In this document: positions 41,321 to 60,863 of the stretch, in pieces
Layout: each line of letters opens with the position of its first letter
Numbering within the stretch: position 1 is the stretch's first letter
Virus record (IMG/VR): IMGVR_UViG_3300031612_000002
Span: 53,471 to 117,470 of that record
DNA from: a virus
DNA: 64,000 nt
Reading direction: 5' to 3' (one strand)
Position numbers and translations under genes: made by a program
Notes under the pieces: model-generated
Told to the model about the DNA's origin: nothing
The model's database searches: none
Seen by the model: the letters and a program-made list of their open reading frames with translations, nothing else

Positions 41321-41350
41321 TTGACAGAACATATAAACATAGTATATAAT
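41321..41350 (+). promoter_or_regulatory. Sigma70-type promoter of the radical SAM region
   Basis: TTGACA 41321-41326 and TATAAT 41345-41350, spacer 18 nt. No comparable promoter was seen from here to 56.9 kb, so it may drive the whole array. Confidence 0.75.
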
Positions 41351-41401
41351 AGTATCAATGTTATAATACATACATATATATAAAACTTATAGGGGATTAC
41401 C

Positions 41402-41632
41402 ATGATTAATGCAGACGTAGTAACAAATATCATCCAAGATGAGATTAATAAAAGTACAGATATGAGTGTAACAAAAGTGTTATCTTCAATTAAATCACAG
41501 ATTGTGAATTTAGAAGAGAATGAACTGAAAAATATGTTTGAAGATTACATGCAGCGAGAAATTGCAGCAGCAGACGTAAATCGTCGTACAAAGAAGAAAG
41601 CAGAAGAGAAATTATTAAGAGAACTGTTTTAA
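41402..41632 (+). CDS. Hypothetical helical protein, 76 aa
   Basis: First gene of the radical SAM array, SD AGGGG. All-helical and charged, with a lysine-rich C-terminus (RRTKKKAEEKLLREL). Could be a small regulator or a substrate peptide of the modifying enzymes, but nothing in it shows this. Confidence 0.6.
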   Translation: MINADVVTNIIQDEINKSTDMSVTKVLSSIKSQIVNLEENELKNMFEDYMQREIAAADVNRRTKKKAEEKLLRELF

Positions 41633-41634
41633 TA

Positions 41635-42396
41635 ATGTATAAGAAATTAATGCCAGATAAGTTCGAACCCGGTGATCCTAATGAGAGATCATGTCATATG
41701 CCAAGGTGGGCATATGACGATGGTAATTTTATTGTAAAAATAATACCAGCTATTGATGAAGAATGTATTCAAGGACAAATTGATCTAATAAATTCATTAC
41801 ACCCTAAAAAACTAATACATGATGATTGGGAAATTATTGAAAGACTAGATTATTCTTGGAATGGTAATGAGTCAAACTCAAATTCTTTTATTAAGTATAA
41901 AATGACAAGAGTTCCTTACGGGTTTGAATTAGACAAAAATTTATCTTGGTTGGAGAATGACTCTAACCCATTATCCTCAATATACAACGATATGGATATG
42001 TATAATAAACACGTATTTCCAAAATATATAGAAACAAATCTGAAGATATTTCCTTATTGTAATGTTGACGGCGGACGTAGTAATATATTGCAGTTTGATA
42101 TTGGTGATTGGATTATTATTGATTGGGATGATTGCATTCTTGGTCAAATTCACGATTCACAATACATAGGTGAATGCCTAGTAATAGATGCTGTAGAAAC
42201 TTTGTATGAAGCCGCAAAGATTGGCGCTGACTATAATTTGCTGTTTGAGTATTATAATAGTACATATGACGTTTATAAAAAATTAACGTATAATACTGTA
42301 TTAGATGATTGTGAGATTAACATAGAAACAGCAGCACGTATATCTTATGAAAAATTAAAGGAAATAAACAGGCGTAACATAGGTTCTATAAATTAA
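41635..42396 (+). CDS. Kinase/phosphotransferase-like protein, 253 aa
   Basis: The centre has CNVDGGRSNILQFDIGDWIIIDWDDCILGQ, split around residue 160, resembling the N-x-L...D-W-D/E region of aminoglycoside-phosphotransferase-type kinases (metal-binding Asp in IIDWDD). The N-terminal lobe has FIVKII and a later VP segment compatible with a hinge. The catalytic loop lacks the usual H-G-D. Two nucleotides separate it from the gene before and none from the first radical SAM gene. Moderate to low confidence on fold. Confidence 0.5.
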   Translation: MYKKLMPDKFEPGDPNERSCHMPRWAYDDGNFIVKIIPAIDEECIQGQIDLINSLHPKKLIHDDWEIIERLDYSWNGNESNSNSFIKYKMTRVPYGFELDKNLSWLENDSNPLSSIYNDMDMYNKHVFPKYIETNLKIFPYCNVDGGRSNILQFDIGDWIIIDWDDCILGQIHDSQYIGECLVIDAVETLYEAAKIGADYNLLFEYYNSTYDVYKKLTYNTVLDDCEINIETAARISYEKLKEINRRNIGSIN

Positions 42397-43647
42397 ATGA
42401 AAAACACATTCGTAAATAGAAAAGATCTACCTACCTGTTTAGCACCTTGGCACGCATTAACTGTTAAATGGGGTGGTAACGTCATCCCAGACATTATCTA
42501 TAAAGGTAAATTAGGTAATATTGGTAAGCAATCATTGCGTGAAATACTAGAGGGAGATGCATACACTGAATTGAGAGAATCACATCGTAAGCGTGAGATT
42601 CCAGAATCATGTCAGGGTTGCGTGAAGAAAGAGAAAGTTGGGCGCAGTCGTCGTTTATATTTCTGGGATAGAATTGATCATGAAACAAAGGTTGCGAGTA
42701 AAGATCTTACAGTAGATTCTGTTCCTGATATTAGGTATCTTGATTTTACTCTTAGTAATAAATGTAATCTAGCATGTATTCATTGTGATCCGTTCGTAAG
42801 TACAGGCTGGACTAAAGATGGTAAATCTCTTAATAGAGAAAAGCCAGAATATTGGAGTAAACAGCCAATAGGTTATCATGGTGCAAGTATAGACTTCATG
42901 GATAATCTATTTAAGAATCCAGAGTATTTTCGCAATCTGCAATGGGTGGCACTGCGTGGTGGTGAGCCGTTGTATGATGAAATCTGTTTATCAGTATTGC
43001 AATGGTTTGTAGACAATGGTATTGCAAGTAGCGTATCATTAGACATCAGTACAAATGCAACCGTATTCAAAGAAGAATTTAGAGAATTATTCAGTCACTT
43101 TAAGCATGTAGAATTATTAATTAGTGTAGAAGCAACTGATGAATTATATAGTATTATTCGTGGCGGTCCTAGTTACACATGGGATCAATTGAACGAGAAC
43201 ATAGAAAAATTCTACGATATCCCAAATGTAGAGGTAGTGTTTGCTGTTACGGTAATGATTACCAATATATTTAATTTAGATAAAGTCTGGGAATGGTTTG
43301 CTACCCATCATGCGCATCGTGCAAGTATTTCGATGAGTAACGTGGTAGTTCATCCTGGCTATTTGAATATAGGAAATATGCCAGAAGAGTTGAAAGCATT
43401 GGCGTATGATAAAATAAAGCATATCCCTAATTTAGAAATGTGGCCACTTACTAGTGCAAACTCAGATGAAGGTGGATATCAGACAGGTATTGAATCCATT
43501 CGTAATGGGTTAATGTTATCAAACGAAGATGATCAAGAATCTGATAAGCAATGGAATTGGTTTCTAAGGTACACTGACGATTTAGATAGATTACGAAAAA
43601 CAGAAACATTGCAGTATATACCAGAAATCGAGAGTTATGTCAGATAG
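42397..43647 (+). CDS. Radical SAM protein 1 (N-twitch-like)
   Basis: 416 aa. Core motif CNLACIHC (about 126-133) binds the SAM-reducing 4Fe-4S cluster, and ALRGGEPLYD is the SAM-contact GGE motif. The N-terminal region has CLAPWHALTVKWGGNVIP at about 12-29 and CQGC at about 72-75. It lacks the double cysteine after the glycine strand that other copies have, so its auxiliary cluster may differ. The barrel strands DISTNAT and LISVEATDE are visible. Product chemistry unknown. Confidence 0.88.
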   Translation: MKNTFVNRKDLPTCLAPWHALTVKWGGNVIPDIIYKGKLGNIGKQSLREILEGDAYTELRESHRKREIPESCQGCVKKEKVGRSRRLYFWDRIDHETKVASKDLTVDSVPDIRYLDFTLSNKCNLACIHCDPFVSTGWTKDGKSLNREKPEYWSKQPIGYHGASIDFMDNLFKNPEYFRNLQWVALRGGEPLYDEICLSVLQWFVDNGIASSVSLDISTNATVFKEEFRELFSHFKHVELLISVEATDELYSIIRGGPSYTWDQLNENIEKFYDIPNVEVVFAVTVMITNIFNLDKVWEWFATHHAHRASISMSNVVVHPGYLNIGNMPEELKALAYDKIKHIPNLEMWPLTSANSDEGGYQTGIESIRNGLMLSNEDDQESDKQWNWFLRYTDDLDRLRKTETLQYIPEIESYVR

Positions 43648-43888
43648 TGCAACTTGCACATTTGTAGTAACAAACGATGGTATCGTGATCGTACATCATA
43701 GAGAATATTGCGGCTACATATACGACGATGAGTGTATATGGCATAATGAGATTGGACCTGCGGTTATATGGCCTGATGGTCACGCTGCATGGTGGATTGA
43801 TGGAATTAATTATACATTCAATGAATGGGTTACTCTAGTTGACCTACCAGATGAAGAAATATTTTTATTAAAGATGGCATATTTATAA
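43637..43888 (+). CDS. Small phage protein with GPA-WPDG motif, 83 aa
   Basis: WHNEIGPAVIWPDGHAAWW then GINYTFNEWV follows a MORN-like H-x-x-x-GPA-x-x-W-x-D-G-x-x-x-W-x-x-x-G pattern that I recall from many phage proteins. Overlaps radical SAM gene 1 by 11 nt and the next ATG by one base. Function unknown; small enough to be considered as a substrate candidate. Confidence 0.6.
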   Translation: MSDSATCTFVVTNDGIVIVHHREYCGYIYDDECIWHNEIGPAVIWPDGHAAWWIDGINYTFNEWVTLVDLPDEEIFLLKMAYL

Positions 43889-44151
43889 TGATAAAACGAC
43901 AATATATAAAAACGACAGAAGACTTCAAAGACAATATGGGTGCTAATAACGATTTAGTTATACTCACATATTCGGATGAAACAATTACAGACAAATATAG
44001 TGTTACACTTAGTGGTACAACAAGTGAAATAGTATTTGAATCTATATTTAATGATTACGATGAAGCGAGAGATTTCTTTATGCTCGTTGTAAGCGCACAT
44101 CCTATTACATTTGATAATGCAATAGCACTAGGACTAACAAGGAATACATGA
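43888..44151 (+). CDS. Hypothetical protein, 87 aa
   Basis: Thr/Asp-rich, beta-like (LVILTYSDETIT, VTLSGTTSEIVFES) with a C-terminal helix. Sits between radical SAM gene 1 and the aminotransferase-like gene, overlapping both neighbours. No recognised domain. Confidence 0.6.
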   Translation: MIKRQYIKTTEDFKDNMGANNDLVILTYSDETITDKYSVTLSGTTSEIVFESIFNDYDEARDFFMLVVSAHPITFDNAIALGLTRNT

Positions 44152-45065
44152 TGAGTAACAACCCAGATTTCGGTAAGACAGGCAACAGTATTTGGAATCA
44201 ACCATTTATTGACTATATACAAGATGAAGTATTGCCAAATATGAATTTGGCAGAAGTGGGTACAGCACCAGCAGAATTCTTAGAATTATATCCCAAATGG
44301 ATACAAAGCAGCAAATTAAATAACTTTACTGGGTTAGATACATATCCTGATCGTTATGTTAGTTTAGGTACTACACAAGCATTAGAATGGTGGCAGTATT
44401 GGTGCATCGCTACTGGACAGAACTTAAAGGTGTTCCGTGGTGAATATCCGTATAACCGTGATGTATGGTTGGGACCAGAAATGAATTGGTCAGATAGCAT
44501 TGACGATACTGGGTTATCCGTAGGTGATGCGGTTATCGTTAGTATTCCATTCAGTGGTAACGGACGCAAGCACGAGCGATGGGATTGGTTGATTGAAGAG
44601 TGTACAGCAAAGAATATTCCTATTCTGGTAGATTGTGCATGGTTTGGAACTTGTTTTGATATTGATGTTGATTTGTCACATGATTGTATTAAGATGGTTG
44701 CATTCAGCACTGGTAAAGGATTAAGTGGTGGTAACTGGCGTGCTGGTATTGTGTTCAGTCGTTTAGATGAAGAGCGTTGTGGTATGCGAGTGCAGACAGA
44801 ATGGAATCACGGTATTCATTTGAATGTAGCATTGTCTAATGCGTTAATGAAAAAGTTCAGCCCAGATACTATGCCTAACAAATATAGAGAAGCACATAAA
44901 ATTGTATGTGAACATTATGGATTGCAAGAGACTAATACGATACATATTGCCCAAGCACCTGATACACCAGAATGGGATATGTTCCATCGTGATCGCGCAT
45001 ACAATCGCATCAACTTAGCGAAAGCACTAAAGAGGTATAAAAATAATGGCAAATTTGCCGAGTAA
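44148..45065 (+). CDS. PLP-dependent aminotransferase-like protein (fold type I)
   Basis: 305 aa. VSLGTTQALEWWQYW fits the N-terminal phosphate-binding region. IPILVDCAWFGTCFD has the PLP-contacting Asp. AFSTGKGLSGGNWRAGIVF has the Schiff-base Lys in the S-x-x-K-x-L/F pattern. Shorter than typical class I enzymes (about 380-400) and lacking most of the C-terminal domain. Might install an amino group in the pathway of the surrounding radical SAM enzymes. Tandem ATGs at 44148 and 44151. Confidence 0.72.
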   Translation: MMSNNPDFGKTGNSIWNQPFIDYIQDEVLPNMNLAEVGTAPAEFLELYPKWIQSSKLNNFTGLDTYPDRYVSLGTTQALEWWQYWCIATGQNLKVFRGEYPYNRDVWLGPEMNWSDSIDDTGLSVGDAVIVSIPFSGNGRKHERWDWLIEECTAKNIPILVDCAWFGTCFDIDVDLSHDCIKMVAFSTGKGLSGGNWRAGIVFSRLDEERCGMRVQTEWNHGIHLNVALSNALMKKFSPDTMPNKYREAHKIVCEHYGLQETNTIHIAQAPDTPEWDMFHRDRAYNRINLAKALKRYKNNGKFAE

Positions 45066-46179
45066 CGCTTGTGCATATCCGTTCAAAGCAGCAATGCTTG
45101 CAAACGGTACTCCCGCTACACCATGTTGTAAATTTCATGATCGTTACTTATCTGATGATGATAACAAGTATGTGTTTAAAGATATTCGCGAGACGATGTT
45201 AAGGAACGAATGGCATGAGGGTTGCTGGAAATGCAAAGCCGATGAAGATACTGGTCTTACTAGTATGCGAACAGAAGCAGACGAATTCTTTGATGATTTC
45301 ACAGATTCAATCCAATTAGAATATCTAGAGATTACAGTGGGCAATCTATGTAATCTTGCATGTGTTGGTTGCGGACCTGAGTATAGTCATACATGGGATA
45401 AAGACGCACTAGCGATTGATTTAGTGATGGTTGAAGTATTAGAACATTTTGCAAAGAATAGAGAATATGATTTAGATGCACTATCCATGGATCAACTATC
45501 TCATTTGAAATATATGAAAGTGACAGGTGGTGAGCCGTTCATGCATAAGCAGTTTTTACGATTCATTAAACGATTGGTAGATAGTGGTATTGCACCTCAG
45601 ATCGATATTGAGATATTTACGAATTGCACATACTGGCCAGCGAAGATGAACTTAGATTATCTATTAGAATTCAATAACTTGCGAATTACGAATAGTATAG
45701 ATGCAGTTGGCGAATTAAACGATATATTACGTCACCCATCCAAATTCCCTGCTATTGAATCTGTACTGAAGCAATGGACAGAATTGGGAACTAAATACGA
45801 CAAGGTAGAAGTATTTGTCGCTTGCACAGTTGGTGTATTAAATGCACCAGTGTTAATAGATCTAATGAGATGGGCAAGATTTGAGATAGGTGTACCAGTA
45901 ATGTTACAGACTATACATGAGCCTGATTGGTTGAGTATTGCGCATCAGACAGATACATATAAGAATAATTTGAGAGCGATAGTAGAAGAGCAATACAAAG
46001 ACTGTCACTGGAAATTAAAGAAAGCATATACATTATTAATTTCATTATGTAAAACAAATAACGCACCAGATAATAGTGAAATTTATTTAGATCAAATGCA
46101 CGAATTGTTTGATTTACGTAATAATGATGCAGAAGAATATATACAAGGATATAAGAAATTATTAAATGAAAGATATTAA
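45046..46179 (+). CDS. Radical SAM protein 2 (N-twitch)
   Basis: 377 aa. N-terminal auxiliary cysteines C9, PCC (about 25-26), and CWKC (about 62-65); core CNLACVGC at about 101-108; GGE motif VTGGEPFMH. The order C...PCC...CxxC-core is that of radical SAM proteins with an N-terminal twitch domain. Overlaps the aminotransferase by 20 nt and the next radical SAM gene by 14 nt. Confidence 0.9.
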   Translation: MANLPSNACAYPFKAAMLANGTPATPCCKFHDRYLSDDDNKYVFKDIRETMLRNEWHEGCWKCKADEDTGLTSMRTEADEFFDDFTDSIQLEYLEITVGNLCNLACVGCGPEYSHTWDKDALAIDLVMVEVLEHFAKNREYDLDALSMDQLSHLKYMKVTGGEPFMHKQFLRFIKRLVDSGIAPQIDIEIFTNCTYWPAKMNLDYLLEFNNLRITNSIDAVGELNDILRHPSKFPAIESVLKQWTELGTKYDKVEVFVACTVGVLNAPVLIDLMRWARFEIGVPVMLQTIHEPDWLSIAHQTDTYKNNLRAIVEEQYKDCHWKLKKAYTLLISLCKTNNAPDNSEIYLDQMHELFDLRNNDAEEYIQGYKKLLNERY

Positions 46180-47392
46180 TGAACTAGCAAAAACAACATC
46201 ATTTTGTATGATACCATTCATGCATACTTACGGATCAGCGGGCGGCGATATAGTACCTTGCTGTGAAGCACAAACTAAGATTTTCAATGAGCCGGGTGCT
46301 GCTATTGAAGACACATGGAATAATGACAACTACAAAGAACTTCGTAGGGCACTCACTAGCAATGAGATACCATCAGAGTGTGATGTATGTTGGCATAATG
46401 AAGCAAGTGGTGTTGTATCAAATAGACAGCAATGGTTTGACGATGATTGGGATAATTATAAAGACTTGATCAAACTCAATGATGATTACTCTGTAGATAA
46501 TCCACCATTGTGGATAGAGTTGAAGGTTTCTAACTTCTGTAATTTGAAATGTATTATGTGTAGTACACATAGTTCGTACAAGCGCGTACAGGACTTAGAC
46601 ATCATTGAGAAGTATATGGGTACAGAGCATCACGAAACACGTCTCCTACGACCAACTACGTTGTTTGATAGCATAGGCAAATGGGATGGGTTCTGGGATA
46701 CAGTTAAAGTATTACAATTCACTGGTGGCGAACCTATCATTAATCAAGAGCATTACGACTTACTTGAATCGATACCAGAGCATCTACGATCTACGATCAA
46801 ATTGCGATATGCTACTAATCTGAGTCATCTAACATTTAAAAAATATAATTTGCTAGAAATTTGGAGTCAATTCAAGCATGTTAATATCAAAGTATCACTT
46901 GATGGTGTCAATGATGTTTATGATTACATTCGTGAAGGTGGTGATTGGAGTACAGTAGAATCTAATCTGAGTGTATTGAATGACATAGAGCATATAGACT
47001 TAGCATTGGGTATTACTATACAAGCACATAATATATTTCAGATGCCAGAATTTTATGAATACTGGAAGCAGAGTGACATTGAATTGACATTCATTACTGC
47101 TAACATATTACATACACCAAAGATACTAAGCCCAGCGATATGGCCTGAGCCTTATAGATCGGCTATTATTAATAAATTACGAAAGCATGAAAAAGAACAT
47201 CCAGAGATGGATACATTTGCTACTTATATGGAAAATAATCAACGAGATTATATACAATATACTAAGATGCGTAAGTACACACGTGATTTAGAAAATAGAT
47301 ACAATCCTAAGATTAAATTAAGTGAGATGATAGAACAATATCTTGATATGCCACTTACTGATTTTTTAATAGACATCAATAATGATATATAA
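46166..47392 (+). CDS. Radical SAM protein 3 (N-twitch)
   Basis: 408 aa. N-terminal FCMIPFMHTYGSAGG, PCC and CDVC auxiliary cysteines; core CNLKCIMC (about 126-133); FTGGEPIIN. TIM-barrel strands VSLDGVND and the C-terminal helical segment are complete. Related to copies 2, 5 and 6 by the same cysteine layout but with different spacing. Overlaps the next gene by 11 nt. Confidence 0.9.
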   Translation: MKDINELAKTTSFCMIPFMHTYGSAGGDIVPCCEAQTKIFNEPGAAIEDTWNNDNYKELRRALTSNEIPSECDVCWHNEASGVVSNRQQWFDDDWDNYKDLIKLNDDYSVDNPPLWIELKVSNFCNLKCIMCSTHSSYKRVQDLDIIEKYMGTEHHETRLLRPTTLFDSIGKWDGFWDTVKVLQFTGGEPIINQEHYDLLESIPEHLRSTIKLRYATNLSHLTFKKYNLLEIWSQFKHVNIKVSLDGVNDVYDYIREGGDWSTVESNLSVLNDIEHIDLALGITIQAHNIFQMPEFYEYWKQSDIELTFITANILHTPKILSPAIWPEPYRSAIINKLRKHEKEHPEMDTFATYMENNQRDYIQYTKMRKYTRDLENRYNPKIKLSEMIEQYLDMPLTDFLIDINNDI

Positions 47393-48080: not shown

Positions 48081-48402
48081 TAAAAATAACATTGAGTGTA
48101 TAGTCGCATGTGAGACAAAAGACGATAAAGTGAAGCGCCAATTTGAGATAACTGTAGCGGGCAGGGTCTGGCCATGTTGTTATTATGCTACTGAACTAAA
48201 AAAGTCTTCCAATAGTCATGTTGATCTTACTGATACCGTATTGGATAAACTTAATGAAGAAGATCCTGATTGGAATAATGCTGTAGTACATGGAGTCGAA
48301 AATGTAACGAAGCATAATTTATTTTGGACATATCTATGGGATGAAGGATTTGATAGTGATAATCCACCAACAGTTTGTTCCTATTTTTGTGGGAATAAAT
48401 GA
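48067..48402 (+). CDS. SPASM/twitch-like auxiliary-cluster protein, 111 aa
   Basis: Contains C14, VAGRVWPCCYYA (about 31-42) and a C-terminal VCSYFC. The G-x-V-x-P-C-C strand is what SPASM and twitch domains have just before their cluster cysteines. There is no radical SAM core motif. Interpreted as the detached auxiliary-cluster domain of radical SAM protein 4 (inference from overlap and cysteine pattern). Confidence 0.6.
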   Translation: MKESNKNNIECIVACETKDDKVKRQFEITVAGRVWPCCYYATELKKSSNSHVDLTDTVLDKLNEEDPDWNNAVVHGVENVTKHNLFWTYLWDEGFDSDNPPTVCSYFCGNK

Positions 48403-48432
48403 ACATATGAAATCAGACGATAAGGACGAAAA

Positions 48433-49992: not shown

Positions 49993-50002
49993 GAGATAAA
50001 TT

Positions 50003-50758
50003 ATGTGGTTTGAAGGATCACCTTTAGATAGGGAAGAAATTGATGATGAATCAATTATATGGCATGAAGAAAATAGAATTATTAAACCTGATTTTAAAAT
50101 ATTAGATGCAGGGAATTTTTTAGAAGAAAGTGAGCACGATGTTGATTACATCATGGACAATACCCGTTTTCCATATATATCGATACCAGAAATTAATGTA
50201 CCACACAAGGATTTGTTTGAAGAAGCAAATAATTTGTTATATACGTCATGCTTTACTGCACACCGTCCTTGTAGTTCGGGGTGGTTGAGTTTGTCGATTC
50301 ATGGAATAAGCAGTGTACATACTAATTGTGCAGAAGATTATAACTTACCAGATGATTATGAAGAAACCCATAGTGACTGGACTGATATTGCTAAATTTTG
50401 CCCTAAAACAGTACAATGGATGCAAGATGAAATGTTGTACAACCAGTTTGCTCGTGTAAGGTTCATGGCACTGTTACCAGATGGTTGGTTGGGCATTCAC
50501 AACGATAGACCTAATCCAGTTGGAGTAGGTGCAACTAATGTAGCATTAAACAATCCAGATGGATGCGAATTCGTATTTGAAGGTATGGGTATTGTTCCAT
50601 TTGAAGCAGGTTCAGTGATGAAATTGAATACAGGATATAAGCATTCTGTATGGAATAAAAGTGAAGAACCAAGGATACATATGATCTTTGATGGTGGTCC
50701 TAGTGATGAATTTAAACAACAGGTGAATCGCGGCTATGCCAAAATGCTTGGCGTTTAA
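50003..50758 (+). CDS. 2OG-Fe(II)/Asp-Asn hydroxylase-like protein 1
   Basis: 251 aa, SD TAGGAG. The C-terminal half is a double-stranded beta helix: FMALLPDGWLGIHNDRP has the iron-binding H-x-D, NNPDGCEFVFEGMG and FEAGSVMKLNTGYKHSVWN have the distal His, and EPRIHMIFDGG the Arg for 2-oxoglutarate. It resembles aspartyl/asparaginyl beta-hydroxylase-type enzymes. Probably hydroxylates the product or protein target of the array. Overlaps radical SAM gene 5 by 23 nt. Confidence 0.72.
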   Translation: MWFEGSPLDREEIDDESIIWHEENRIIKPDFKILDAGNFLEESEHDVDYIMDNTRFPYISIPEINVPHKDLFEEANNLLYTSCFTAHRPCSSGWLSLSIHGISSVHTNCAEDYNLPDDYEETHSDWTDIAKFCPKTVQWMQDEMLYNQFARVRFMALLPDGWLGIHNDRPNPVGVGATNVALNNPDGCEFVFEGMGIVPFEAGSVMKLNTGYKHSVWNKSEEPRIHMIFDGGPSDEFKQQVNRGYAKMLGV

Positions 50759-51668
50759 ACATGCAGTAACGATAGGCGTAACAGGCGAAGTTAGACCATG
50801 CTGTGCTTGGAATGCGGCATCATCTGGTGTTGCAATTACCGATGATTGGGAATCGTTGCACAACAAATACTATGTTGAGTCATTGCGAGGTTGGTTGCCT
50901 GAATGCATAGAGTGCCAACAAGATGAAGAATCAAATGGTAAGAGTTATCGAATGTATATGAATGATGTACTAGCAGATAGCATTGGCACAGAGCAATGGG
51001 ACTTAAAGATTAACAACACGTGTAATCTCACGTGCGTCTCATGTGATAGTTATAGTTCAAGTTCGTGGGCAGTAAAAACTGGTAAGCGCAAAGCAAATAC
51101 AGGTTGGCACAAAGATATTGAGCAGATATACCCACAATTGCATTTTGCAAAGATTCTTAAATTTACAGGTGGTGAACCATTCATGATACCACAAGTAAAG
51201 AAGATAATTAAATATCTGATCGATGCAGACGTTTCATCTACGATTGAATTACAATTCATTACTAATGGAACAATAGATATTAATGCATATTATCCCTTGT
51301 TCGAATCGTTTAAACGTGTTATAATAGTTGCAAGTGTAGATGCCATAGGTGAGCGTTTTGAATACCTTAGACGAGGAGCAAACTGGGAACAAGTAAGTAA
51401 TAATATCATTGACATACACAAGAGTTCACCTGATAATACGAGTATATGTATTACGTGTTTACCAAGTGTACTAAATATTAATAACATTCACGAAGTGAAT
51501 GATTGGGCGACAAGTCACGATATTCACTTCAATAGAGCGAGTGATTTGATTAGTCCCGCATACATGGCTCCGGGTGCATTGGATGATCAAGATAATAAAC
51601 AACAATTGATTGATCATGTAATGATACTAGATGATAGTGATGGCAAAGATTATACAAAATGGATTTAA
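50736..51668 (+). CDS. Radical SAM protein 5 (N-twitch)
   Basis: 310 aa. C4, RPCCAW (about 20-25) and CIEC (about 57-60) are the N-terminal cluster; core CNLTCVSC (about 91-98); FTGGEPFMI. Shorter at both ends than copies 3 and 6 but with complete core strands. The start may be a little upstream, since the first cysteine is only four residues in. Confidence 0.88.
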   Translation: MPKCLAFKHAVTIGVTGEVRPCCAWNAASSGVAITDDWESLHNKYYVESLRGWLPECIECQQDEESNGKSYRMYMNDVLADSIGTEQWDLKINNTCNLTCVSCDSYSSSSWAVKTGKRKANTGWHKDIEQIYPQLHFAKILKFTGGEPFMIPQVKKIIKYLIDADVSSTIELQFITNGTIDINAYYPLFESFKRVIIVASVDAIGERFEYLRRGANWEQVSNNIIDIHKSSPDNTSICITCLPSVLNINNIHEVNDWATSHDIHFNRASDLISPAYMAPGALDDQDNKQQLIDHVMILDDSDGKDYTKWI

Positions 51669-51672
51669 ACCA

Positions 51673-52893
51673 ATGACAAAAAAAGTAAGTGACACGTTCT
51701 GTGTTTTACCCTTTATGCACGTAGCAACTAATGCTGCGGGATCTTATCGAGTATGCTGTAATAGCACGCCCGGTGAGAACACAATATTACAAGAGAATGG
51801 CAAGCCATATAAAATCTACAAGCATGATTTAGATGAAGTATGGAATAGCCCAACCTATACAACTATCAGAAAACAGTTCATCGATGGTGAGCGACCAGAT
51901 ATGTGTGCGCGTTGTTTCAGAGAAGAAGATGCTGGCATTCGTAGTGCGCGAGCAGGATTTAATGAAAAGTGGCTGAAAGAAGATGTGAAGATAGATGTTG
52001 AAATTCCAGTTGATGTGAAATATGTTGACTTACGCTTGGGTAACTTATGTAACCTAAAATGTCGCATGTGTAATCCGTGGGCAAGTAGCATGTGGGTTAA
52101 AGATTGGAATAAAGTAGTTGATGCAGCATATTTAGATCCACCAAAGAAATTGGATGAAGACACATTAGAATTCATGAATACCATGACTGAATGGCCAGAT
52201 TGGGAAAAGACAGGTATTACATTCACTGAAATTGCTCATACGGTTGAAGAAATTTATTTAACTGGTGGTGAGCCTACATTGGCAGTTAGTCAATATAAGT
52301 TGTTAGACTATTGTATTGAAAATGATCTTGCATCGGGCATTCGTTTAAAGTACAACACCAACCTAACTAATGTGCCACCGAAGATGATCGAATATTGGTC
52401 ACATTTCAAGCGTGTACAATTAAATTGCTCAATTGATGCAATTGGTGCGCGTGACAGATATATTCGTTACCCTAGTCATTGGCATATAGTAGAAAAGAAT
52501 TTTGATGAATTATCTAAATTGGATAATGTATATATTCAGATTCATTGTACGGTACAAGCATTGAATGTATGTGCACTACACGAGGTTATCGAGTTTGCGG
52601 AATCACGTGGATTAGAACATGATCAGTTATATTTCAATATATTAAACCATCCGCGTAGTATGAATATACAAGTATTGCCACATCATTTAAAGACGTTGGC
52701 ATTGTATAATTTAAAAAGTCATAAAGCATGGCCTAAGGTAGACGATGTGATTAAGTATTTAAATGCTGGGAATACACATGCTGAACACTGGCAAGAATTT
52801 ATTGATTATAATTTGAAGATGGATGAATTGCAACGTGGTACGTTAGTAGAATCATGTCCAGAATTTAAAGGACAAATCAATGACAATAACTAA
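51673..52893 (+). CDS. Radical SAM protein 6 (N-twitch)
   Basis: 406 aa from ATG 51673, four nt after the previous stop; an overlapping start at 51631 or 51640 is also possible and no SD decides it. FCVLPFMHVATNAAG, VCC and CARC are the auxiliary cysteines; core CNLKCRMC; LTGGEPTLA. Long helical C-terminus. Closest in layout to copy 3, suggesting duplication. Confidence 0.88.
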   Translation: MTKKVSDTFCVLPFMHVATNAAGSYRVCCNSTPGENTILQENGKPYKIYKHDLDEVWNSPTYTTIRKQFIDGERPDMCARCFREEDAGIRSARAGFNEKWLKEDVKIDVEIPVDVKYVDLRLGNLCNLKCRMCNPWASSMWVKDWNKVVDAAYLDPPKKLDEDTLEFMNTMTEWPDWEKTGITFTEIAHTVEEIYLTGGEPTLAVSQYKLLDYCIENDLASGIRLKYNTNLTNVPPKMIEYWSHFKRVQLNCSIDAIGARDRYIRYPSHWHIVEKNFDELSKLDNVYIQIHCTVQALNVCALHEVIEFAESRGLEHDQLYFNILNHPRSMNIQVLPHHLKTLALYNLKSHKAWPKVDDVIKYLNAGNTHAEHWQEFIDYNLKMDELQRGTLVESCPEFKGQINDNN

Positions 52894-52999
52894 TCAGATT
52901 CTATGCCCATATTGTGGTACCTACGTTGACGATATGCCACACCGATGTACAAAAGAAATATGGACGTTGCGTCCAGTAGTAAAAAGGAAAGTAAAGTGA
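52880..52999 (+). CDS. Small zinc-ribbon-like protein, 39 aa
   Basis: ATG 52880 behind AAAGGA inside the end of radical SAM gene 6, to TGA 52999. CPYCGTYVDDMPHRC gives a C-x2-C...H-x2-C zinc knuckle, followed by a basic tail (RPVVKRKVK). Overlaps the next GTG start. Too short for a function call. Confidence 0.5.
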   Translation: MTITNQILCPYCGTYVDDMPHRCTKEIWTLRPVVKRKVK

Positions 53000-53595
53000 T
53001 TGATTTAACTAATAAGAAAATATTATGTACAGGTAATCCAGAGATTGGTCTAGCGAGTGAGATATTAAAACGATATCCACAGACAGATTTTATTAGTCAA
53101 AGCATCAGTGACCATGATCTAACATTGAATCATGTGAAAAAAACTGTTGCAAATAAAGCACTAGAATACGACATTTTTATTAACTGTAGTGCACTATGGC
53201 AGTACCATCAGGCACTGCTACTAGATGTAGTATATAAAACCGCACAGAGTGCCCGGAAATCCCTACATATAGTGTCTGTCGGGTCCACCACGGACAGGGC
53301 TACAAAAGGGTCGGATTGGACATATCAACAAGAGAAGAAAGCATTACGTAGTGCGAGTAACGCTATGGGATTGAAAAGTATCTGGCAAGGTGGCCCAAAG
53401 GTGAGTTATGTTACGTTTGGTACATTGCCGAATAACGCAGACAAGCATCCAGGACGCAAGTTGATGACATTTGAAGAAGCGGTAGATTGTATTGAATATG
53501 CGATGATATTGCCTGAACATCTGTCATTGAATGAATTAAGTATTGATCCTATACAAGTGACAGATGAAGAATGGATTAACCGTTCAAAAAATTAA
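52996..53595 (+). CDS. SDR-like (Rossmann) oxidoreductase, 199 aa
   Basis: GTG 52996 behind AAAGGAAAG gives MIDLTNKKILCTGNPEIGLA, a first beta strand and a degenerate glycine loop (T-G-N-P-E-I-G-L). INCSA corresponds to the N-x-A region, VSVGST to the catalytic-serine strand, and YQQEKKAL to Y-x-x-x-K. Short for an SDR but with all landmarks. Probably a NAD(P)-dependent reductase or epimerase for the pathway product. The longer frame from 52945 would overlap the zinc protein and is less likely. Confidence 0.7.
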   Translation: MIDLTNKKILCTGNPEIGLASEILKRYPQTDFISQSISDHDLTLNHVKKTVANKALEYDIFINCSALWQYHQALLLDVVYKTAQSARKSLHIVSVGSTTDRATKGSDWTYQQEKKALRSASNAMGLKSIWQGGPKVSYVTFGTLPNNADKHPGRKLMTFEEAVDCIEYAMILPEHLSLNELSIDPIQVTDEEWINRSKN

Positions 53596-53604
53596 GGAAT
53601 AATT

Positions 53605-53721
53605 ATGAAAATATATATTAAGCAAGCAGTAGTGCTATTGGCTAAAGTGGCGTCAGTCACATTGGCTATAATTTTAACATCATCGCCTATCATGGCTATG
53701 CCTAATTACCTTGCACTATGA
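53605..53721 (+). CDS. Small membrane or secreted peptide, 38 aa
   Basis: ATG 53605 behind AAGGAAT to TGA 53721. One hydrophobic stretch (VVLLAKVASVTLAIILTSS) followed by IMAMPNYLAL, either a signal peptide with a tiny mature end or a single-span membrane peptide. Overlaps the next ATG (ATGA). Confidence 0.5.
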   Translation: MKIYIKQAVVLLAKVASVTLAIILTSSPIMAMPNYLAL

Positions 53722-54656
53722 ACATCGGAATATATCAAGTAGTAAATGCACATGCACCTGCGATTCATTGGTGGCTTGCACAAGATCATAGATTTGGTCC
53801 TCAAATCTATTCTGGATTAAAGCCAACACCTGAACGACTAGCAATTGGAACCATAGTTGAAGAGAACCGATATACCCATCTTATTGATCAAGATTTATAT
53901 TATAGTCATCAAGAAACGCTTAGAATGATGGAAAATAAAACAGAAACAGATGGTGGGATTGATTGCCTTTCCGAATATTTTAAATTTAATGAAGATTTTC
54001 AATATAAAGTGTGGAGTAATTATTTCGGTGCTACATATGATTCAAGGTTCGCACCAATTGCTGACAAACTCATATTCACCCAAGTCACAACCGAACAAAG
54101 TGCAATGTTCTATATAACGCAATATGCATTTATTGAATTAACAGAAGATGAGATAATTGAACAAACGCAGTTGTGGTGGGAAGATCACATGCTAATGGAC
54201 GGAGATATTATTGGCAAATGGAAAGAAGTTTGGTATAGAGATTATCACGACAAATGTATAGAGGATTTTCACGATGGTAAGTTGAAATATATGTGGCAAT
54301 TAAATTTTGCACATTGGGATTTGAAGAAATCGCTAAGTCACATAGACGATAACACTGGTGATGGTATTTTTGAATTTGAGTATTCGTTCCATAGGCTATT
54401 TGAAGAAAAACACGATTACGAAGATGTGTTTGTTCAAAATGAGTCATTATCCTATATAGAAGAAGATAAAATTGATCATTTAGTAGTAGACGTTGAATGG
54501 TTTAAAAATACAGATGTTATACTTGATTACTTAGGTGTAAGTAACAGTGATATATTAAAAGAAGCAGCACAGATATATGGTAGGCGTTACAAACAGGTCG
54601 TAGACGCATACGATATACTTTATAATAAATACTACATTAACGGAGAGACAGCATGA
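53718..54656 (+). CDS. Hypothetical protein, 312 aa
   Basis: Soluble, Trp/Tyr/Asp-rich. Begins MNIGIYQVVNAHAPAIHWW; mostly helical after residue 130 with KWKEVWYRDYHDKC. No motif recognised. Tightly fitted between the small membrane peptide and the secreted nuclease gene, overlapping both by 4 nt. Confidence 0.65.
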   Translation: MNIGIYQVVNAHAPAIHWWLAQDHRFGPQIYSGLKPTPERLAIGTIVEENRYTHLIDQDLYYSHQETLRMMENKTETDGGIDCLSEYFKFNEDFQYKVWSNYFGATYDSRFAPIADKLIFTQVTTEQSAMFYITQYAFIELTEDEIIEQTQLWWEDHMLMDGDIIGKWKEVWYRDYHDKCIEDFHDGKLKYMWQLNFAHWDLKKSLSHIDDNTGDGIFEFEYSFHRLFEEKHDYEDVFVQNESLSYIEEDKIDHLVVDVEWFKNTDVILDYLGVSNSDILKEAAQIYGRRYKQVVDAYDILYNKYYINGETA

Positions 54657-55090
54657 GAACGATTATAATTTTATTAATTGCAATACTATCAACAATGCCA
54701 GCAATGGCAAAAGAAGTAGAGATGACCATCTACGATTATAAGATTACAAGAGTGATTGATGGCGACACCGTTGCATTTGAAGCTACCTTTTTACCAGCAC
54801 CATTGAAGCAGGAATTAAGTATTCGTGTATATGGTGTAGATACTCCAGAAAAAAGTTGGAGAGCAGAATGTCCTAAAGAAGCAGCATGGGGTGAAGAAGC
54901 GTCACAGTTTACTAAAGATATGTTAAATGCAGCAACGGTTATACAAGTAGCCATTTATAAATGGGACAAGTATGGTGGTCGAGTACTTGGTGATATCATT
55001 ATAGATGGCAAGAGTTTAAGACACATGCTCATAGCAGAAGGCTTTGCTAGAGAATATTATGGCGATAAAAAGATTTCATGGTGCATCTAA
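54653..55090 (+). CDS. Secreted staphylococcal-nuclease-like (thermonuclease) protein
   Basis: 145 aa. Signal peptide about 1-19 ending AMA. SNase fold: ITRVIDGDTVAFEA, IRVYGVDTPE (Arg and Asp of the active site), KWDKYGGRVLGDI (second catalytic Arg), and LIAEGFAREYYG. Full length for the domain. Predicted periplasmic Ca-dependent nuclease; could degrade competing or leaked DNA. Its place inside a radical SAM array is unexplained. Confidence 0.88.
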   Translation: MRTIIILLIAILSTMPAMAKEVEMTIYDYKITRVIDGDTVAFEATFLPAPLKQELSIRVYGVDTPEKSWRAECPKEAAWGEEASQFTKDMLNAATVIQVAIYKWDKYGGRVLGDIIIDGKSLRHMLIAEGFAREYYGDKKISWCI

Positions 55091-55091
55091 A

Positions 55092-56261
55092 ATGAGCGAA
55101 GATTTAAAATACAGTACATACGATTTTACTAAAATACCATTTGATGATTTAGTAAGAGTAGGGCAACGCACAATGCTTCATCGCGATTTATTCAGTATTA
55201 GTTGGTTACTGGGACGCTATTGTAACTATCGTTGTAGTTACTGCTGGCCTTACGCTCGTAGTGATAAGAAAGACTTTAGACCTACTGAGTTATGTTTACG
55301 TACAGTTGACGAGATTAAGCGTCAAGCACGAGACAATGGTTTCAATAGTTTTCACTTTAGTTTAAGCGGGGGTGAACCAACATTCCATCCGGGATATTTG
55401 GATATAATGAAACACCTTGCAGATGATGTAGATAACACTAATTACACATCAGTTCACATGACAACTAATATGTCACGTCCCATGAAGTGGTTTGAGACTT
55501 ATGTTAAGAATGTCGCACCATTTCATAGAGCAAGTATTACAGCAAGTTTGCACACAGAGCATTTAGACACTAGAGAAAAGATGCAAGTCTTTGCTGATAA
55601 GTTAATATTCTGTCAAGAACATGATGTACAAGTAACTATCAATCAAGTGATGGTTCCAGAATGGTTTGAGCGAGATTGGGATAATGCGTTATTCTTTCAT
55701 AATCAGGGAATCAACTGTACATTAAAGCCTATGTCTGATCCTACTGCTAGTAAGATAGTAGATGGTTACACCGCAGAGCAGATGGAGCGATTACACAACG
55801 GTATGCCACAGCGTGGTTATACAGAAGATAAAGCGAAAAAGACTCAGTTGGTTACACGCCCGACACCTACATTTAAGAAAGATGGGGATCCGTTGTATTG
55901 GGAAGAGAATGTAACAGTGCCTCAGCATTTTCAAGTTGAGTTCATGGATAAAGATAACAAGCATTGGTTCATGGATCAGGCTGAACGATTCAACGCATTT
56001 GGTTTTAATAAATTCAAGGGCTGGGAATGTTCATCTGGTCATCGTAGTATTATTATCAGAGAACCAGATGGTAGTGTGAAGCGTAGTTATAGTTGCGTAG
56101 ATCAGCCGTTAGGAAATATAGAAACAGGTTTCAAGTTATTTGATGCACCCACAGTATGTACGACTAATGCGTGCGTGAGTAGTGCAGATAGTAAGATACC
56201 TAAGCGTGCGCCAGGTACACAATTACCATTGTTTCCCGGCGATACATCTTTTAAGGAATAG
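55092..56261 (+). CDS. Radical SAM protein 7
   Basis: 389 aa from ATG 55092; an earlier ATG at 55059 inside the nuclease gene is possible. Core CNYRCSYCWPYA (about 44-55), FSLSGGEPTFHPG, MTTNMSRP. There is no N-terminal cysteine cluster; instead a C-terminal region has several cysteines (ECSSGH, YSCVDQP, CTTNAC) that could bind an auxiliary cluster. Different branch from copies 1-6. Followed after 4 nt by a hydroxylase-like gene. Confidence 0.88.
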   Translation: MSEDLKYSTYDFTKIPFDDLVRVGQRTMLHRDLFSISWLLGRYCNYRCSYCWPYARSDKKDFRPTELCLRTVDEIKRQARDNGFNSFHFSLSGGEPTFHPGYLDIMKHLADDVDNTNYTSVHMTTNMSRPMKWFETYVKNVAPFHRASITASLHTEHLDTREKMQVFADKLIFCQEHDVQVTINQVMVPEWFERDWDNALFFHNQGINCTLKPMSDPTASKIVDGYTAEQMERLHNGMPQRGYTEDKAKKTQLVTRPTPTFKKDGDPLYWEENVTVPQHFQVEFMDKDNKHWFMDQAERFNAFGFNKFKGWECSSGHRSIIIREPDGSVKRSYSCVDQPLGNIETGFKLFDAPTVCTTNACVSSADSKIPKRAPGTQLPLFPGDTSFKE

Positions 56262-56265
56262 TTAT

Positions 56266-56886
56266 ATGTCTGTAATTTTTAATTTAGGAAATCAAATCTT
56301 ATTAGATAAGAGTATTAATACTAGCAGATTTATGGAAGAACTATCACAGTTTGACGATAAATGGGAACAATACAATGAATTTAAACCACATATTAAGCGA
56401 GACGGTCTATGTGTAATAAATGAAAGTGGTTTAAATCAATCTGGTCCCGCATTGAATAGTCTGTATGAATGGAATAGAAAATATAATACAGATTACAGTG
56501 AAAAAGATTTTGATAAAACTACCCCTGTGTATGATCTCACTTCAATGAAAGAGTTACTTGGTGATATATTACATTTATGTGGTAGAACGCATATATTGAG
56601 AGTATCGCCAGGCGGTTATTTCCCACCACATCGAGATAGTCGTGGTGAAAATGTGGATACGTTTAGATTAATAATGGCGTTATCTAATACTACAAATCCG
56701 TGGTTTAGATTTATGTTAGAAGATAAGCCGCTTTATTTTGAAATGGGCCAACTATATGCAGTGAACACTACATTAGAGCATGCATTATTTAATGCAAGTA
56801 CTAAAGATAGTTATTGGTTAGTTATCAATGCGCATAACACGCCTGAAATGCATGACTGGGTTAGATCTAATCTAGCGATTAAGTAG
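56266..56886 (+). CDS. 2OG-Fe(II)/Asp-Asn hydroxylase-like protein 2
   Basis: 206 aa from ATG 56266 behind AAGGAATAG. LRVSPGGYFPPHRDSRG has H-x-D; LYAVNTTLEHALFNAS has the distal His; then SYWLVINAH. Same cupin-type arrangement as the protein at 50003 but little overall likeness. Likely an iron and 2-oxoglutarate dependent hydroxylase. Last plus-strand gene of the array; its end overlaps a convergent minus-strand gene by 15 nt. Confidence 0.7.
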   Translation: MSVIFNLGNQILLDKSINTSRFMEELSQFDDKWEQYNEFKPHIKRDGLCVINESGLNQSGPALNSLYEWNRKYNTDYSEKDFDKTTPVYDLTSMKELLGDILHLCGRTHILRVSPGGYFPPHRDSRGENVDTFRLIMALSNTTNPWFRFMLEDKPLYFEMGQLYAVNTTLEHALFNASTKDSYWLVINAHNTPEMHDWVRSNLAIK

Positions 56887-60826: not shown

Positions 60827-60833
60827 TTATTTG

Positions 60834-60841: not shown

Positions 60842-60863
60842 TATACATAATTGGAGATATTAC

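Follow-up and report, generated by a model that had tools for sequence, protein, structure and literature searches.

The array described here, in which genes for seven radical SAM proteins lie within 15.6 kb, is likely to be one operon that is behind a host-type promoter and codes for a single multi-step pathway. It is in the window, the 64,000-nucleotide stretch of viral DNA that was analyzed, which is part of a 117-kb record. All seven proteins are encoded on the + strand in the span 41402-56886 (Table 1), and the genes are packed end to end. Gaps between adjacent ORFs were -80 to +122 nt, and total ORF length was 1.002 of the array span. From 41.3 to 57 kb, only the promoter at the head of the array matched at 12/12 positions; it is conserved in one relative (L019, at 1367 there). 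Perfect promoter sites numbered 14 in the window, whereas 60 simulated sequences of 64 kb had 0.18 on average. Within the array there was one 11/12 site (at 51409), weak promoter sites were rarer than in shuffles (71 versus 96.3), and terminator-like sites were close to expectation (7 versus 7.6). An earlier note, made from the sequence alone, had described a single strand with overlapping ORFs, which held, and no internal promoter or terminator, which held for perfect promoter sites, with the 11/12 site internal and no excess of terminators.

Table 1. Features of the array and of the possible Fe-S supply genes in the window.
Feature	Position	Strand	Evidence
Sigma-70-type promoter, TTGACA-N18-TATAAT	41321..41350	+	Heads array; 12/12 match
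o76, 76-aa protein	41402..41632	+	63% identical in L019; no Pfam match over cut-off
Kinase-like protein, 253 aa	41635..42396	+	APH-like motif by eye only
rS1, N-terminal-twitch radical SAM, partial auxiliary Cys set	42397..43647	+	NF033640 5.8e-75; SPASM 1.6e-10 at residues 14-75
o83, 83-aa protein	43637..43888	+	78% identical in L019
o87, 87-aa protein	43888..44151	+	Not found in relatives compared (L019 and four others)
Short PLP-fold aminotransferase-like enzyme, 305 aa	44148..45065	+	PF00155 0.02, below cut-off
rS2, N-terminal-twitch radical SAM	45046..46179	+	NF033640 8.3e-67, over cut-off
rS3, N-terminal-twitch radical SAM	46166..47392	+	NF033640 2.9e-93, over cut-off
rS4, radical SAM core without auxiliary domain, 232 aa	47382..48080	+	Radical_SAM 3.6e-7; GQYGDP
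Detached SPASM/twitch-like domain, 111 aa	48067..48402	+	SPASM 0.0096, below cut-off; Cys 37, 38, 104, 108
u519, 519 aa: GT-A-like (~14-286) and class I methyltransferase-like (~295-519), predicted	48433..49992	+	Structural matches
Asp/Asn beta-hydroxylase-type 2OG oxygenase	50003..50758	+	PF05118 2.4e-11, clear
rS5, N-terminal-twitch radical SAM, 310 aa	50736..51668	+	NF033640 1e-54, over cut-off
rS6, N-terminal-twitch radical SAM	51631..52893	+	NF033640 4e-112, over cut-off
SDR-like Rossmann protein	52945..53595	+	YxxxK by eye
312-aa protein	53718..54656	+	No Pfam match over cut-off; not found in four relatives compared
Staphylococcal-nuclease homolog	54653..55090	+	PF00565 3.3e-13
rS7, radical SAM, C-terminal four-Cys domain	55059..56261	+	Radical_SAM 4.1e-13; listed ORF starts TTG 55044
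Second Asp/Asn hydroxylase-like protein	56182..56886	+	PF05118 8.7e-4, below cut-off (weak)
FAD/NAD(P) reductase, ferredoxin-reductase type	61649..62434	-	NAD_binding_1 1.5e-10; FAD_binding_6 0.0052
IscU-like Fe-S scaffold	62906..63286	-	NifU_N 9.9e-53; three expected Cys present by eye
Cysteine desulfurase (IscS-like), C-terminal part, cut by contig end	63329..63982	-	Aminotran_5 1.4e-29, profile 183-369

The seven radical SAM proteins differ in their auxiliary domains. The C-x3-C-x2-C motif was found in 7/7 and GGEP in six, with GQYGDP replacing it in rS4; both counts were those of the earlier note. Pfam Radical_SAM matched all seven (E values from 9.2e-6 to 4.1e-13), with rS1 below the cut-off, rS2 exactly at it, and the other five above. 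Comparison with radical SAM subfamilies, which the earlier note had suggested, placed five of the seven over the curated cut-off of NCBIfam NF033640, which is 170 bits (rS1, 252.8; rS2, 226; rS3, 313.1; rS5, 186.1; rS6, 375.2), and left rS4 (42.5 bits) and rS7 (42.7 bits) under it. The family gives no function here because its accession was not found in the open-access literature searched. The claim of an N-terminal C..CC..CxxC auxiliary layout in four copies and a partial one in the first also held: rS2, rS3, rS5, and rS6 have the layout, and rS1 has C14, C72, and C75 and no CC. Instead of this layout, rS7 has four C-terminal cysteines (324, 346, 367, and 372), all invariant in an alignment of 23 sequences (the window and 22 relatives) with 85 invariant columns. 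This protein is one of the two most widespread enzymes of the array. In PDB, the N-twitch profile matched the peptide enzyme SkfB best (1.3e-10); the profile also matched the twitch domain of BtrN (2.9e-9), and there was a profile match to anSME (1.7e-4). The 111-aa SPASM-like ORF that follows rS4 might complete that enzyme, a possibility inferred from sequence alone. The split recurs in three relatives (L019, L026, and L082), and the rS4 homolog of G008, rD366, is a single ORF with a C-terminal CC..C..C.

The partner proteins were identified with very different degrees of support. The assignment of a PLP aminotransferase-like enzyme in the earlier note has weak but coherent support: its family profile matched the aminotransferase 3if2 (0.0045), and Asp162 and Lys190 were invariant in 15 aligned sequences. 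Of the two H-x-D...H hydroxylases claimed, one is clear and the other weak. The SDR and kinase-like assignments are supported at the level of motifs only. The SDR-like protein had no sequence match in Pfam or PDB, and its gene is kept after rS6 at 50-70% identity in 7/9 records tallied; the kinase-like protein had no Pfam or PDB match, and comparison with L019 and four other relatives did not recover it. The nuclease homolog, which is 79% identical and on the opposite strand in L026, had not been named, nor had the glycosyltransferase-like and methyltransferase-like domains of the 519-aa protein.

Those two domains came from structure prediction, which the earlier note had proposed for the unknown proteins. 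u519 had no sequence match in PDB, and its AlphaFold model (pLDDT 77.3) matched Majastridin (Z 10.0, 156 residues, 4.0 A) and LARGE1 (Z 9.9) in the N part, and 6ulo (Z 13.0, 207 residues, 3.5 A) and PNMT/NNMT (Z ~10) in the C part. There was no profile homology of u519 to two families that often accompany the array enzymes: MT211, methyltransferase-like by eye and a partner in 49/81 units, and GT230, which has a GT-A fold and is a partner in 32/81. The GT230 model (pLDDT 89.6) matched WrtF (2.4e-4), RmlT (3.0e-4), and B4GALNT1 (Z 12.3, 139 residues, 2.6 A); it also resembles nucleotidyltransferases, the S-glycosyltransferases SunS and ThuS, and polypeptide GalNAc transferases. The GT-A assignments of u519 and GT230 and the methyltransferase assignment are model predictions at the level of fold, from which activity is only inferred. 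GT230 was found in 12/13 array-bearing records, including the window's own, where it lies after two S74 tail-fiber genes and an Anp1-type glycosyltransferase. MT211 was found in 10/13 and is absent from the window's own record.

The order of the core genes is conserved across viruses. The ten-gene order rS1-PLP-rS2-rS3-u519-hydroxylase-rS5-rS6-SDR-rS7 was complete in six other virus records (G008, G007, G005, L026, L027, and L037) and nearly complete in two more, with core gene identities of 36-78%. In L041 only u519 was missing at the 36% identity floor (27% in a separate comparison), and in G004 the contig end truncates the array after rS5. The dN/dS values of four core genes (rS1, 0.085; PLP, 0.036; rS2, 0.079; rS3, 0.097) indicate purifying selection. 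Members have been gained and lost among the arrays of different viruses. Three relatives have 14-15 radical SAM ORFs within 24-27 kb, together with a nucleosidase and an amidinotransferase whose closest matches were HsvA (1e-25), inosamine-phosphate amidinotransferase (5.9e-19), and SxtG (1.1e-18). Related arrays also have a class III aminotransferase (5.5e-41) and, below the cut-off, nitroreductase-like and ABM-like genes. Amidinotransferase, nucleosidase, and rA473 were not found in the window's own 117-kb record. None of the 13 array-bearing records was called 90% complete. The earlier note had held that its reading would be refuted by homologs found singly without a conserved neighborhood, or by several broken frames in relatives. 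Neither was the case: the ten-gene order recurs, and two virus matches, both containing a single in-frame stop, overrun the gene ends, the full frames being 433 and 434 aa. Four bacterial rS7 matches (G012, G017, G120, and G126) have one stop each and open frames of 373-396 aa; these stops were not examined.

A shorter related module is present in assembled bacterial genomes. Homologs of rS7 were found in 15/143 genomes of the class Bdellovibrionia, often beside the partners of the array and glycosyltransferases. At 16 Bdellovibrionota-type loci, rS7 was accompanied by an rA473-like ORF in 15, an rD366-like ORF (24-36%) in 14, GT230 in nine, MT211 in seven, and all four partners in four. Glycos_transf_2 accounted for 16/102 of the other neighbors, in a scan that covered only 102 of 152 neighbors and had no background for the glycosyltransferase count. 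The neighbors also include other pathways, such as homogentisate breakdown genes, and the loci are from metagenome-assembled genomes. Phage families were absent among the 25 of 80 neighbor families considered. Because the set recurs in order in viruses and in a shorter version in bacteria, the array looks like a real biosynthetic pathway. The earlier note's view of a pathway rather than scattered genes is thus supported by gene order, purifying selection, and the head promoter, and we consider a single pathway likely and well supported.

The window also has genes that could supply Fe-S clusters. The reductase, a possible source of electrons, was found in 5/13 array-bearing records and the IscU-like gene in 3/13, the window's own included in both. 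The IscS-like protein had identities of up to 70.5%, and two phage records annotate iscS at 69.3%. Evidence bearing on a T4-like backbone consists of a match to the gp15 tail sheath stabilizer (4.4e-26) and of tail sheath, terminase, and UvsX-like families. Gp23 was not found in the window's own 117-kb record and is present in 4/13 array-bearing records.

T4-like phages with many radical SAM genes have already been published with the product undetermined, and such arrays are not wholly new. In the T4-like Campylobacter phages CP220 and CPt10, which have 11 and 12 radical SAM proteins overall, five of these proteins and a putative amidinotransferase are encoded in a cluster of 10-12 genes; its authors suggested that the module has a metabolic function when oxygen is low and proposed no product (PMC2853527, 2010). 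The likeness is in having at least five radical SAM genes per cluster. However, similarity between CP220 and window array proteins is faint (24-29% locally), the 36 kb of CP220 that were compared did not show the order rS1-PLP-rS2-rS3, and the amidinotransferase of that cluster has no counterpart in the window or the rest of its record, although related arrays have one. In CP220 the cluster is followed by two nucleotide-diphospho-sugar transferases. The 183-kb marine T4-like virus TARA_ERS488813_N000010 has 12 radical SAM genes with Fe-S assembly and related genes (PMC5332604, 2017); the section on radical SAM genes gives the count without order, partners, or pathway. In a pelagimyophage study, radical SAM gene cassettes were described as additions in the host-recognition region. 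Synechococcus phage S-SCSM2R encodes KdsA, KdsB, and glycosyltransferases next to an amidinotransferase and 2OG oxygenases. BtrN is an aminocyclitol dehydrogenase of the twitch radical SAM type; its twitch was matched after the core (residues 159-237), whereas the auxiliary domain of the array enzymes is before the core. The PBCV-1 capsid glycosyltransferase (2p6w), a viral enzyme, was among the Foldseek hits of u519, weakly (E 8.7e-3, TM 0.37 on target). PBCV-1 belongs to a different class of viruses from the window phage, and the full-length 2p6w protein is known to have a methyltransferase domain as well.

The earlier note had left the product open among nucleotide, glycan, lipid, and peptide. 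The evidence leans toward a glycan without settling the matter, and the inference that the pathway builds or decorates one is as likely to be wrong as right; no enzyme here has a tested substrate. In this model, the PLP enzyme, with the amidinotransferase in relatives, would make or set amino or guanidino groups; the radical SAM enzymes would act on unactivated C-H positions in sugar or aminocyclitol units, by oxidation, deoxygenation, epimerization, or some other change, with the twitch/SPASM cluster binding substrate or passing electrons; and adjustments of oxidation state would come from the hydroxylases and the SDR. The role of u519 would be to transfer the unit and cap it. Fe-S clusters would be loaded and reduced with the help of IscU, IscS, and the reductase, and in relatives the nucleosidase would remove 5'-deoxyadenosine and SAH. 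Such a glycan, carried by the host surface or by the virion, may alter adsorption or superinfection. Points for a glycan are the u519 and GT230 folds, the partnership with MT211 and GT230, the Glycos_transf_2 neighbors, the BtrN twitch match, the amidinotransferase of relatives, and the sugar-gene neighborhoods in S-SCSM2R and CP220. Against it, a peptide enzyme is the closest PDB match to the N-twitch profile, and SPASM/twitch radical SAM enzymes in general act mostly on peptides. Also against it, none of the 19 window array proteins had a Pfam match to nucleotide-sugar synthesis, the window's own record is without amidinotransferase, nucleosidase, rA473, and MT211, and GT230 is also nucleotidyltransferase-like. 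A bolder reading, which remains possible, is of a mobile, expandable viral operon (up to ~15 radical SAM genes) that is a whole radical-chemistry line for glycan tailoring and that Bdellovibrionota have in a shorter form. Its products would be amino/guanidino, oxidized, or C-modified sugars unknown from any glycan, with viral IscS/IscU and reductase sustaining the enzymes and split radical SAM enzymes using a separate small auxiliary-cluster protein.

Modification of a peptide or virion protein (RiPP-like or post-translational) remains possible, with the hydroxylases acting on Asp/Asn side chains before glycosyltransferase and methyltransferase steps. The SkfB and anSME matches, the common action of SPASM/twitch enzymes on peptides, the PF05118 hydroxylase, and the resemblance of GT230 to SunS, ThuS, and polypeptide GalNAc transferases all favor it. 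However, no precursor-like small ORF is conserved across arrays (a check by eye only; o76 and o83 recur in L019 alone, and o87 in no relative compared), and none of the 19 window array proteins matched a peptidase in Pfam. Hypermodification of phage DNA bases, possibly with glycosylation, against host nucleases seems unlikely. T4-like phages glycosylate hydroxymethylated bases, and known thymidine hypermodification includes a radical SAM enzyme. In addition, DNA preparations of the Campylobacter phage vB_CcoM-IBB_35, from the radical-SAM-rich group, appeared to hold inhibitors of Taq and phi29 polymerases, and G004 and the record of L026, both with the core array, have a thymidylate-synthase-family gene. 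But this family was found in 2/13 records only, and not in the window's own or the 184-kb G008, an absence that is not decisive because of the incompleteness of the records. Bins of bacterial genomes also contain the module, and the 25 of 80 neighbor families considered there include none from phages.

A free small molecule, such as a guanidino or amino compound that alters the infected cell or its neighbors, is similarly improbable. The amidinotransferase of relatives is near HsvA and SxtG, and related arrays have the class III aminotransferase and the nitroreductase-like and ABM-like genes (the latter two below cut-off), but no transporter or carrier-protein match was found by Pfam among 39 array or neighbor proteins scanned singly, and methyltransferase- and glycosyltransferase-like families are among the commonest partners. 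A collection of unrelated auxiliary genes with separate minor roles, gathered in a hypervariable region, would fit the variable membership of the arrays and the pelagimyophage cassettes. This is very unlikely and is largely refuted by the ten-gene order at 36-78% identity, the overlapping ORFs, the one perfect promoter, and purifying selection.

Viral auxiliary genes have mostly been treated singly; here, a whole set of oxygen-sensitive enzymes keeps its order across divergent viruses. Because the ordered set is kept in such viruses, with Fe-S assembly genes in some, and part of it is shared with Bdellovibrionota, we believe that the array must pay for itself. No answer to the question raised by the Campylobacter phages in 2010, that of the module's product, was found in the open-access literature searched. 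Whatever the product, the array is a source of several uncharacterized radical SAM activities and of a natural split, inferred from its ORFs, between core and auxiliary domains. If the product is a glycan, then the operon would be relevant to superinfection and to the ways in which phages alter or imitate surface sugars.

Seven of the 19 open reading frames in the array encode radical SAM proteins, as recognized by both motif and profile. The window forms the final 64 kb of a virus record of 117,470 bp. The 19 frames lie end to end on the + strand between 41402 and 56886, neighbours being separated by -80 to +122 nt, and the first genes past 56886 are on the opposite strand. The earlier note had proposed seven such proteins (here rS1 to rS7, in gene order), with an N-terminal auxiliary-cluster layout in copies 2, 3, 5, and 6 and a partial version in copy 1, and both claims held. 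rS7 has a four-Cys domain at its C-terminus; rS4 has no auxiliary domain and is followed by an open reading frame for a 111-aa SPASM-like piece. The other members include a short PLP-fold enzyme, a 519-aa protein (u519), two Asp/Asn-hydroxylase-type proteins (one of them a weak match), and small unknown proteins. The labels SDR and kinase-like, also proposed in the note, are supported by motif alone, read by eye, and PDB sequence searches with the SDR and with the kinase-like protein gave no match.

The array genes recur in a conserved order in other viruses. A search with the PLP protein found nine virus loci (59-100% identity, some from one and the same virus), and a search with a radical SAM alignment found at least 595 confirmed stretches; we retained the best 80. 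All records are fragments of environmental assemblies. We tallied gene order in only nine other records, which were picked for core genes already found, using an identity floor of 36%. The order rS1-PLP-rS2-rS3-u519-hydroxylase-rS5-rS6-SDR-rS7 was complete, intervening genes allowed, in six of them (G008, G007, G005, L026, L027, and L037). L041 was missing only u519 at the 36% floor, G004 was truncated after rS5, and L048 kept three of the ten core genes. Compared to the closely related L019, whose contig is 8 kb long, dN/dS was 0.036-0.097 for rS1, PLP, rS2, and rS3, 0.34 for rS4, 0.32 for the unknown protein of 76 aa, and 0.21 for the gene preceding the array.

Based on the gene order conserved in the records tallied, we rejected the possibility that these are scattered auxiliary genes, and we conclude that they very likely constitute one pathway. 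The earlier note had favored a biosynthetic pathway and had suggested looking for the same gene set in other phage genomes, and this part held. It had also held that broken frames in relatives would count against a pathway. Two radical SAM genes of related viruses seemed to contain in-frame stops, which we rejected: the matches overrun the gene ends, and the open reading frames (433 and 434 aa) are full.

The split between rS4 and the 111-aa protein is also present in three related loci (L019, L026, and L082), and we therefore rejected a broken or mis-assembled rS4. There is a second split pair in the relatives, in which the partner of the radical SAM family rG238 is a SPASM-like protein of 109 aa. 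One or more genes separate the two in L107, G007, G005, L027, and L037, and they are immediate neighbours in L036, L045, and L052.

Some related arrays are larger, with 15, 14, and 15 radical SAM open reading frames in G008, G007, and G005, respectively, within 24-27 kb. The whole of G008 has 25 matches to the twitch-domain family NF033640, not all of them separate genes; a single open frame in the same genome has two tandem radical SAM matches (Table). Related arrays also contain an amidinotransferase (HsvA match, 1e-25), a nucleosidase (PNP_UDP_1, 8e-15) that could clear 5'-deoxyadenosine, an ABM-like protein (match below cut-off), a second protein of the u519 type, and SGNH-like proteins (by eye).

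The array is headed by a promoter of a kind that is abundant in the window. We found 14 perfect sigma-70-type promoters, compared to a mean of 0.18 in 60 simulated sequences with matching dinucleotide composition. Several have spacer text in common (TTGACAAGTAAGGC...). The 14 sites are likely a repeated phage promoter family, an inference from sequence alone. The array start in the earlier note, 41321, coincides with the first base of one of these promoters, which is conserved in the divergent L019. The note's claim of no internal promoter held for perfect sites, none of which was found inside the array; an 11/12 match at 51409 leaves an internal transcription start possible. The viral late-promoter motif ATAAATA was not enriched (22 observed versus 39.2 expected), although a single copy is at 41312.

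Features of the window and of related loci (window coordinates unless a locus is named)
Feature	Position	Strand	Remarks
Perfect sigma-70-type promoters (12 sites)	3615, 4848, 6317, 8232, 9734, 10634, 11336, 15509, 35890, 36302, 37890, 41321	+	
Perfect sigma-70-type promoters (2 sites)	60822, 60614	-	
Staphylococcal-nuclease homologue	54653-55090		In array; 79% homologue in L026, opposite strand
SGNH-like protein	57521-58246	-	By eye; adjoins array
HD-domain hydrolase	59603-60151	-	Adjoins array
Class 3 lipase	60816-61622	+	1.1e-23; adjoins array
Ferredoxin-reductase-like flavoprotein	61649-62434	-	Window end
IscU	62906-63286	-	NifU_N 9.9e-53
IscS-like cysteine desulfurase, C-terminal part	63329-63982	-	Truncated by contig end
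Two GT-A-type glycosyltransferase genes	L010 6665-8402 (G000:C1)		Window's own virus; after two S74-chaperone tail-fibre genes
Large acidic-repeat protein region	L145 12405-15163, L146 10270-13673, L147 5920-9082 (-)		Upstream of GT230
rG238	L107 8343-9059		Split pair
109-aa SPASM-like protein	L107 10229-10558		Split pair
916-aa open frame	L108 about 4434-7160 (G008:C1:19460-22159)		Two tandem radical SAM matches

A viral Fe-S assembly set is near the array (61649-63982, - strand). Among 13 array-bearing records, including the window's own and none called 90% complete, NifU_N was found in three, Aminotran_5, a family that extends beyond IscS, in four, and the reductase in five.

Glycosyltransferase-like and methyltransferase-like families are frequent partners of the radical SAM genes. 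We clustered 84 stretches, which came from the window itself, from four related records (seven stretches), and from 76 of the 80 loci; merging those of one record gave 81 units. Duplicates L031, L058, L067, and L091 had been removed and some near-duplicates were left in. An rS7-like protein (≥40% identity) was in 52 of the 84 stretches, one like the radical SAM family rA473 in 62, and both in 39. The commonest families other than radical SAM were MT211 (49 units), Asp/Asn hydroxylases (42), the GT-A-like GT230 (32), and SDR (29). Several partner labels, including methyltransferase-like for MT211, were assigned by eye, and a PDB sequence search with MT211 gave nothing stronger than E 0.11. GT230 had no match in a PDB sequence search; its model (pLDDT 89.6) is nearest to the glycosyltransferases WrtF, RmlT, and B4GALNT1, and same-fold nucleotidyltransferases are also close. 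GT230 was in 12 and MT211 in 10 of the 13 array-bearing records. The window's own record lacks MT211, and its GT230 is outside the window, downstream of two S74-chaperone tail-fibre genes and an Anp1-type glycosyltransferase. In three relatives, a secreted-looking protein of 747-962 aa with acidic repeats and a 169-aa protein directly precede GT230; the large protein had no PHROG match, and a tail-fibre link at these loci is therefore not shown. u519 was without a match in a PDB sequence search; its model combines a GT-A-like and a methyltransferase-like domain, with Z of about 10 and 13, respectively. No homology of u519 to GT230 or MT211 was detectable.

Homologues of the array genes are present in assembled bacterial genomes. 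A pattern-based scan of 84,980 species genomes for rS7 gave 25 loci, all from metagenome-assembled genomes (contigs up to 937 kb): 19 titled as Bdellovibrionota-type taxa, one as 'bacterium', and five with other names that resemble phage contigs. Array genes at L116, L118, L125, L134, and L136 (bins named Rickettsiales, Gammaproteobacteria, Chloroflexi, and Acidimicrobiaceae) resemble viral ones, and by eye these are likely phage contigs in bacterial bins. rS7 was in 15 of 143 genomes of the class of one Bdellovibrionota-type taxon, and four bacterial matches had one in-frame stop apiece. Leaving out these five loci and L124, L132, L135, and L140, we scanned the neighbours of the remaining 16, finding an rA473-like frame at 15, one like the radical SAM family rD366 (24-36% identity) at 14, GT230 at nine, MT211 at seven, and all four at four. 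Among other neighbours (102 of 152 scanned, without a background rate), Glycos_transf_2 matched 16 of 102 and GDP-mannose dehydratase/epimerase families 3 of 102; these had the highest counts among 25 of the 80 families. Families without an evident connection, such as those of the homogentisate pathway, were also among the neighbours. We built a tree from 71 rS7 proteins (rows <250 bits, identical, or X-rich removed beforehand). The window grouped with 24 virus rows and two genome-bin rows (clade support 98/95), with several groups of Bdellovibrionota rows around this clade and a separate, distant group of 20 virus rows (100/100). Because the tree is rooted at its midpoint, it does not tell in which direction the gene was transferred. 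The link to Bdellovibrionota is one of homologues only and is not evidence of a phage host.

Phages with many radical SAM genes are already known. Campylobacter phages CP220 and CPt10 have 11 and 12 radical SAM proteins, and each has a cluster that includes five radical SAM proteins and a putative amidinotransferase (PMC2853527); radical SAM was named an unusual feature of that group (PMC3322345). Five such proteins are reported in phage CC_R7 (PMC12398825), 12 genes in a marine T4-like genome (PMC5332604), cassettes in a pelagimyophage host-recognition region (PMC7029224), and domains of unclear function in Baltic viral contigs (PMC9301287). Phages of the Tasman Sea are reported to be enriched in radical SAM, methyltransferases, and glycosyltransferases (PMC7150976). 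Using tblastn against 50,697 phage records, we found no match to u519 or rS7, one marine record for rA473, four records for rS6 (24-31% identity), 37 Vibrio phage records for rS1 (20.7-23%), and six for the amidinotransferase. No paper on the conserved array or its product was found in the literature searched, which left out most subscription journals. Thus, the kind is known, and this variant, with its gene order, partners, and bacterial counterpart, is likely undescribed in that literature.

The product of the array could be a glycan, a modified peptide or virion protein, or hypermodified DNA. Peptide or virion-protein modification is possible and is the main rival, since peptides are the usual substrates of SPASM enzymes and the N-twitch profile (the auxiliary-cluster domain before the radical SAM core) has its best PDB match in SkfB. 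DNA hypermodification is less likely because hydroxymethylase-family genes are sparse (two of 13 records) and array homologues exist in bacteria; in its favor, both records with such a gene are core-array records. The case for a glycan is indirect in every line, and no enzyme has a tested substrate. It rests on the GT-A-like and methyltransferase-like domains modelled in u519, the frequency of partners of these two types, the many glycosyltransferases among the bacterial neighbours (again without a background rate), the match of the N-twitch domain to the twitch domain of BtrN, and the relatives' amidinotransferase, which is of the HsvA/inosamine-phosphate/SxtG kind. BtrN is an aminocyclitol dehydrogenase. 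In addition, the amidinotransferase of phage S-SCSM2R adjoins KdsA/KdsB and glycosyltransferases, and the radical SAM cluster of CP220 is followed by two nucleotide-diphospho-sugar transferases. Based on these observations, we rank a glycan first as the product of the array, a reading that we consider slightly less likely to be right than wrong.
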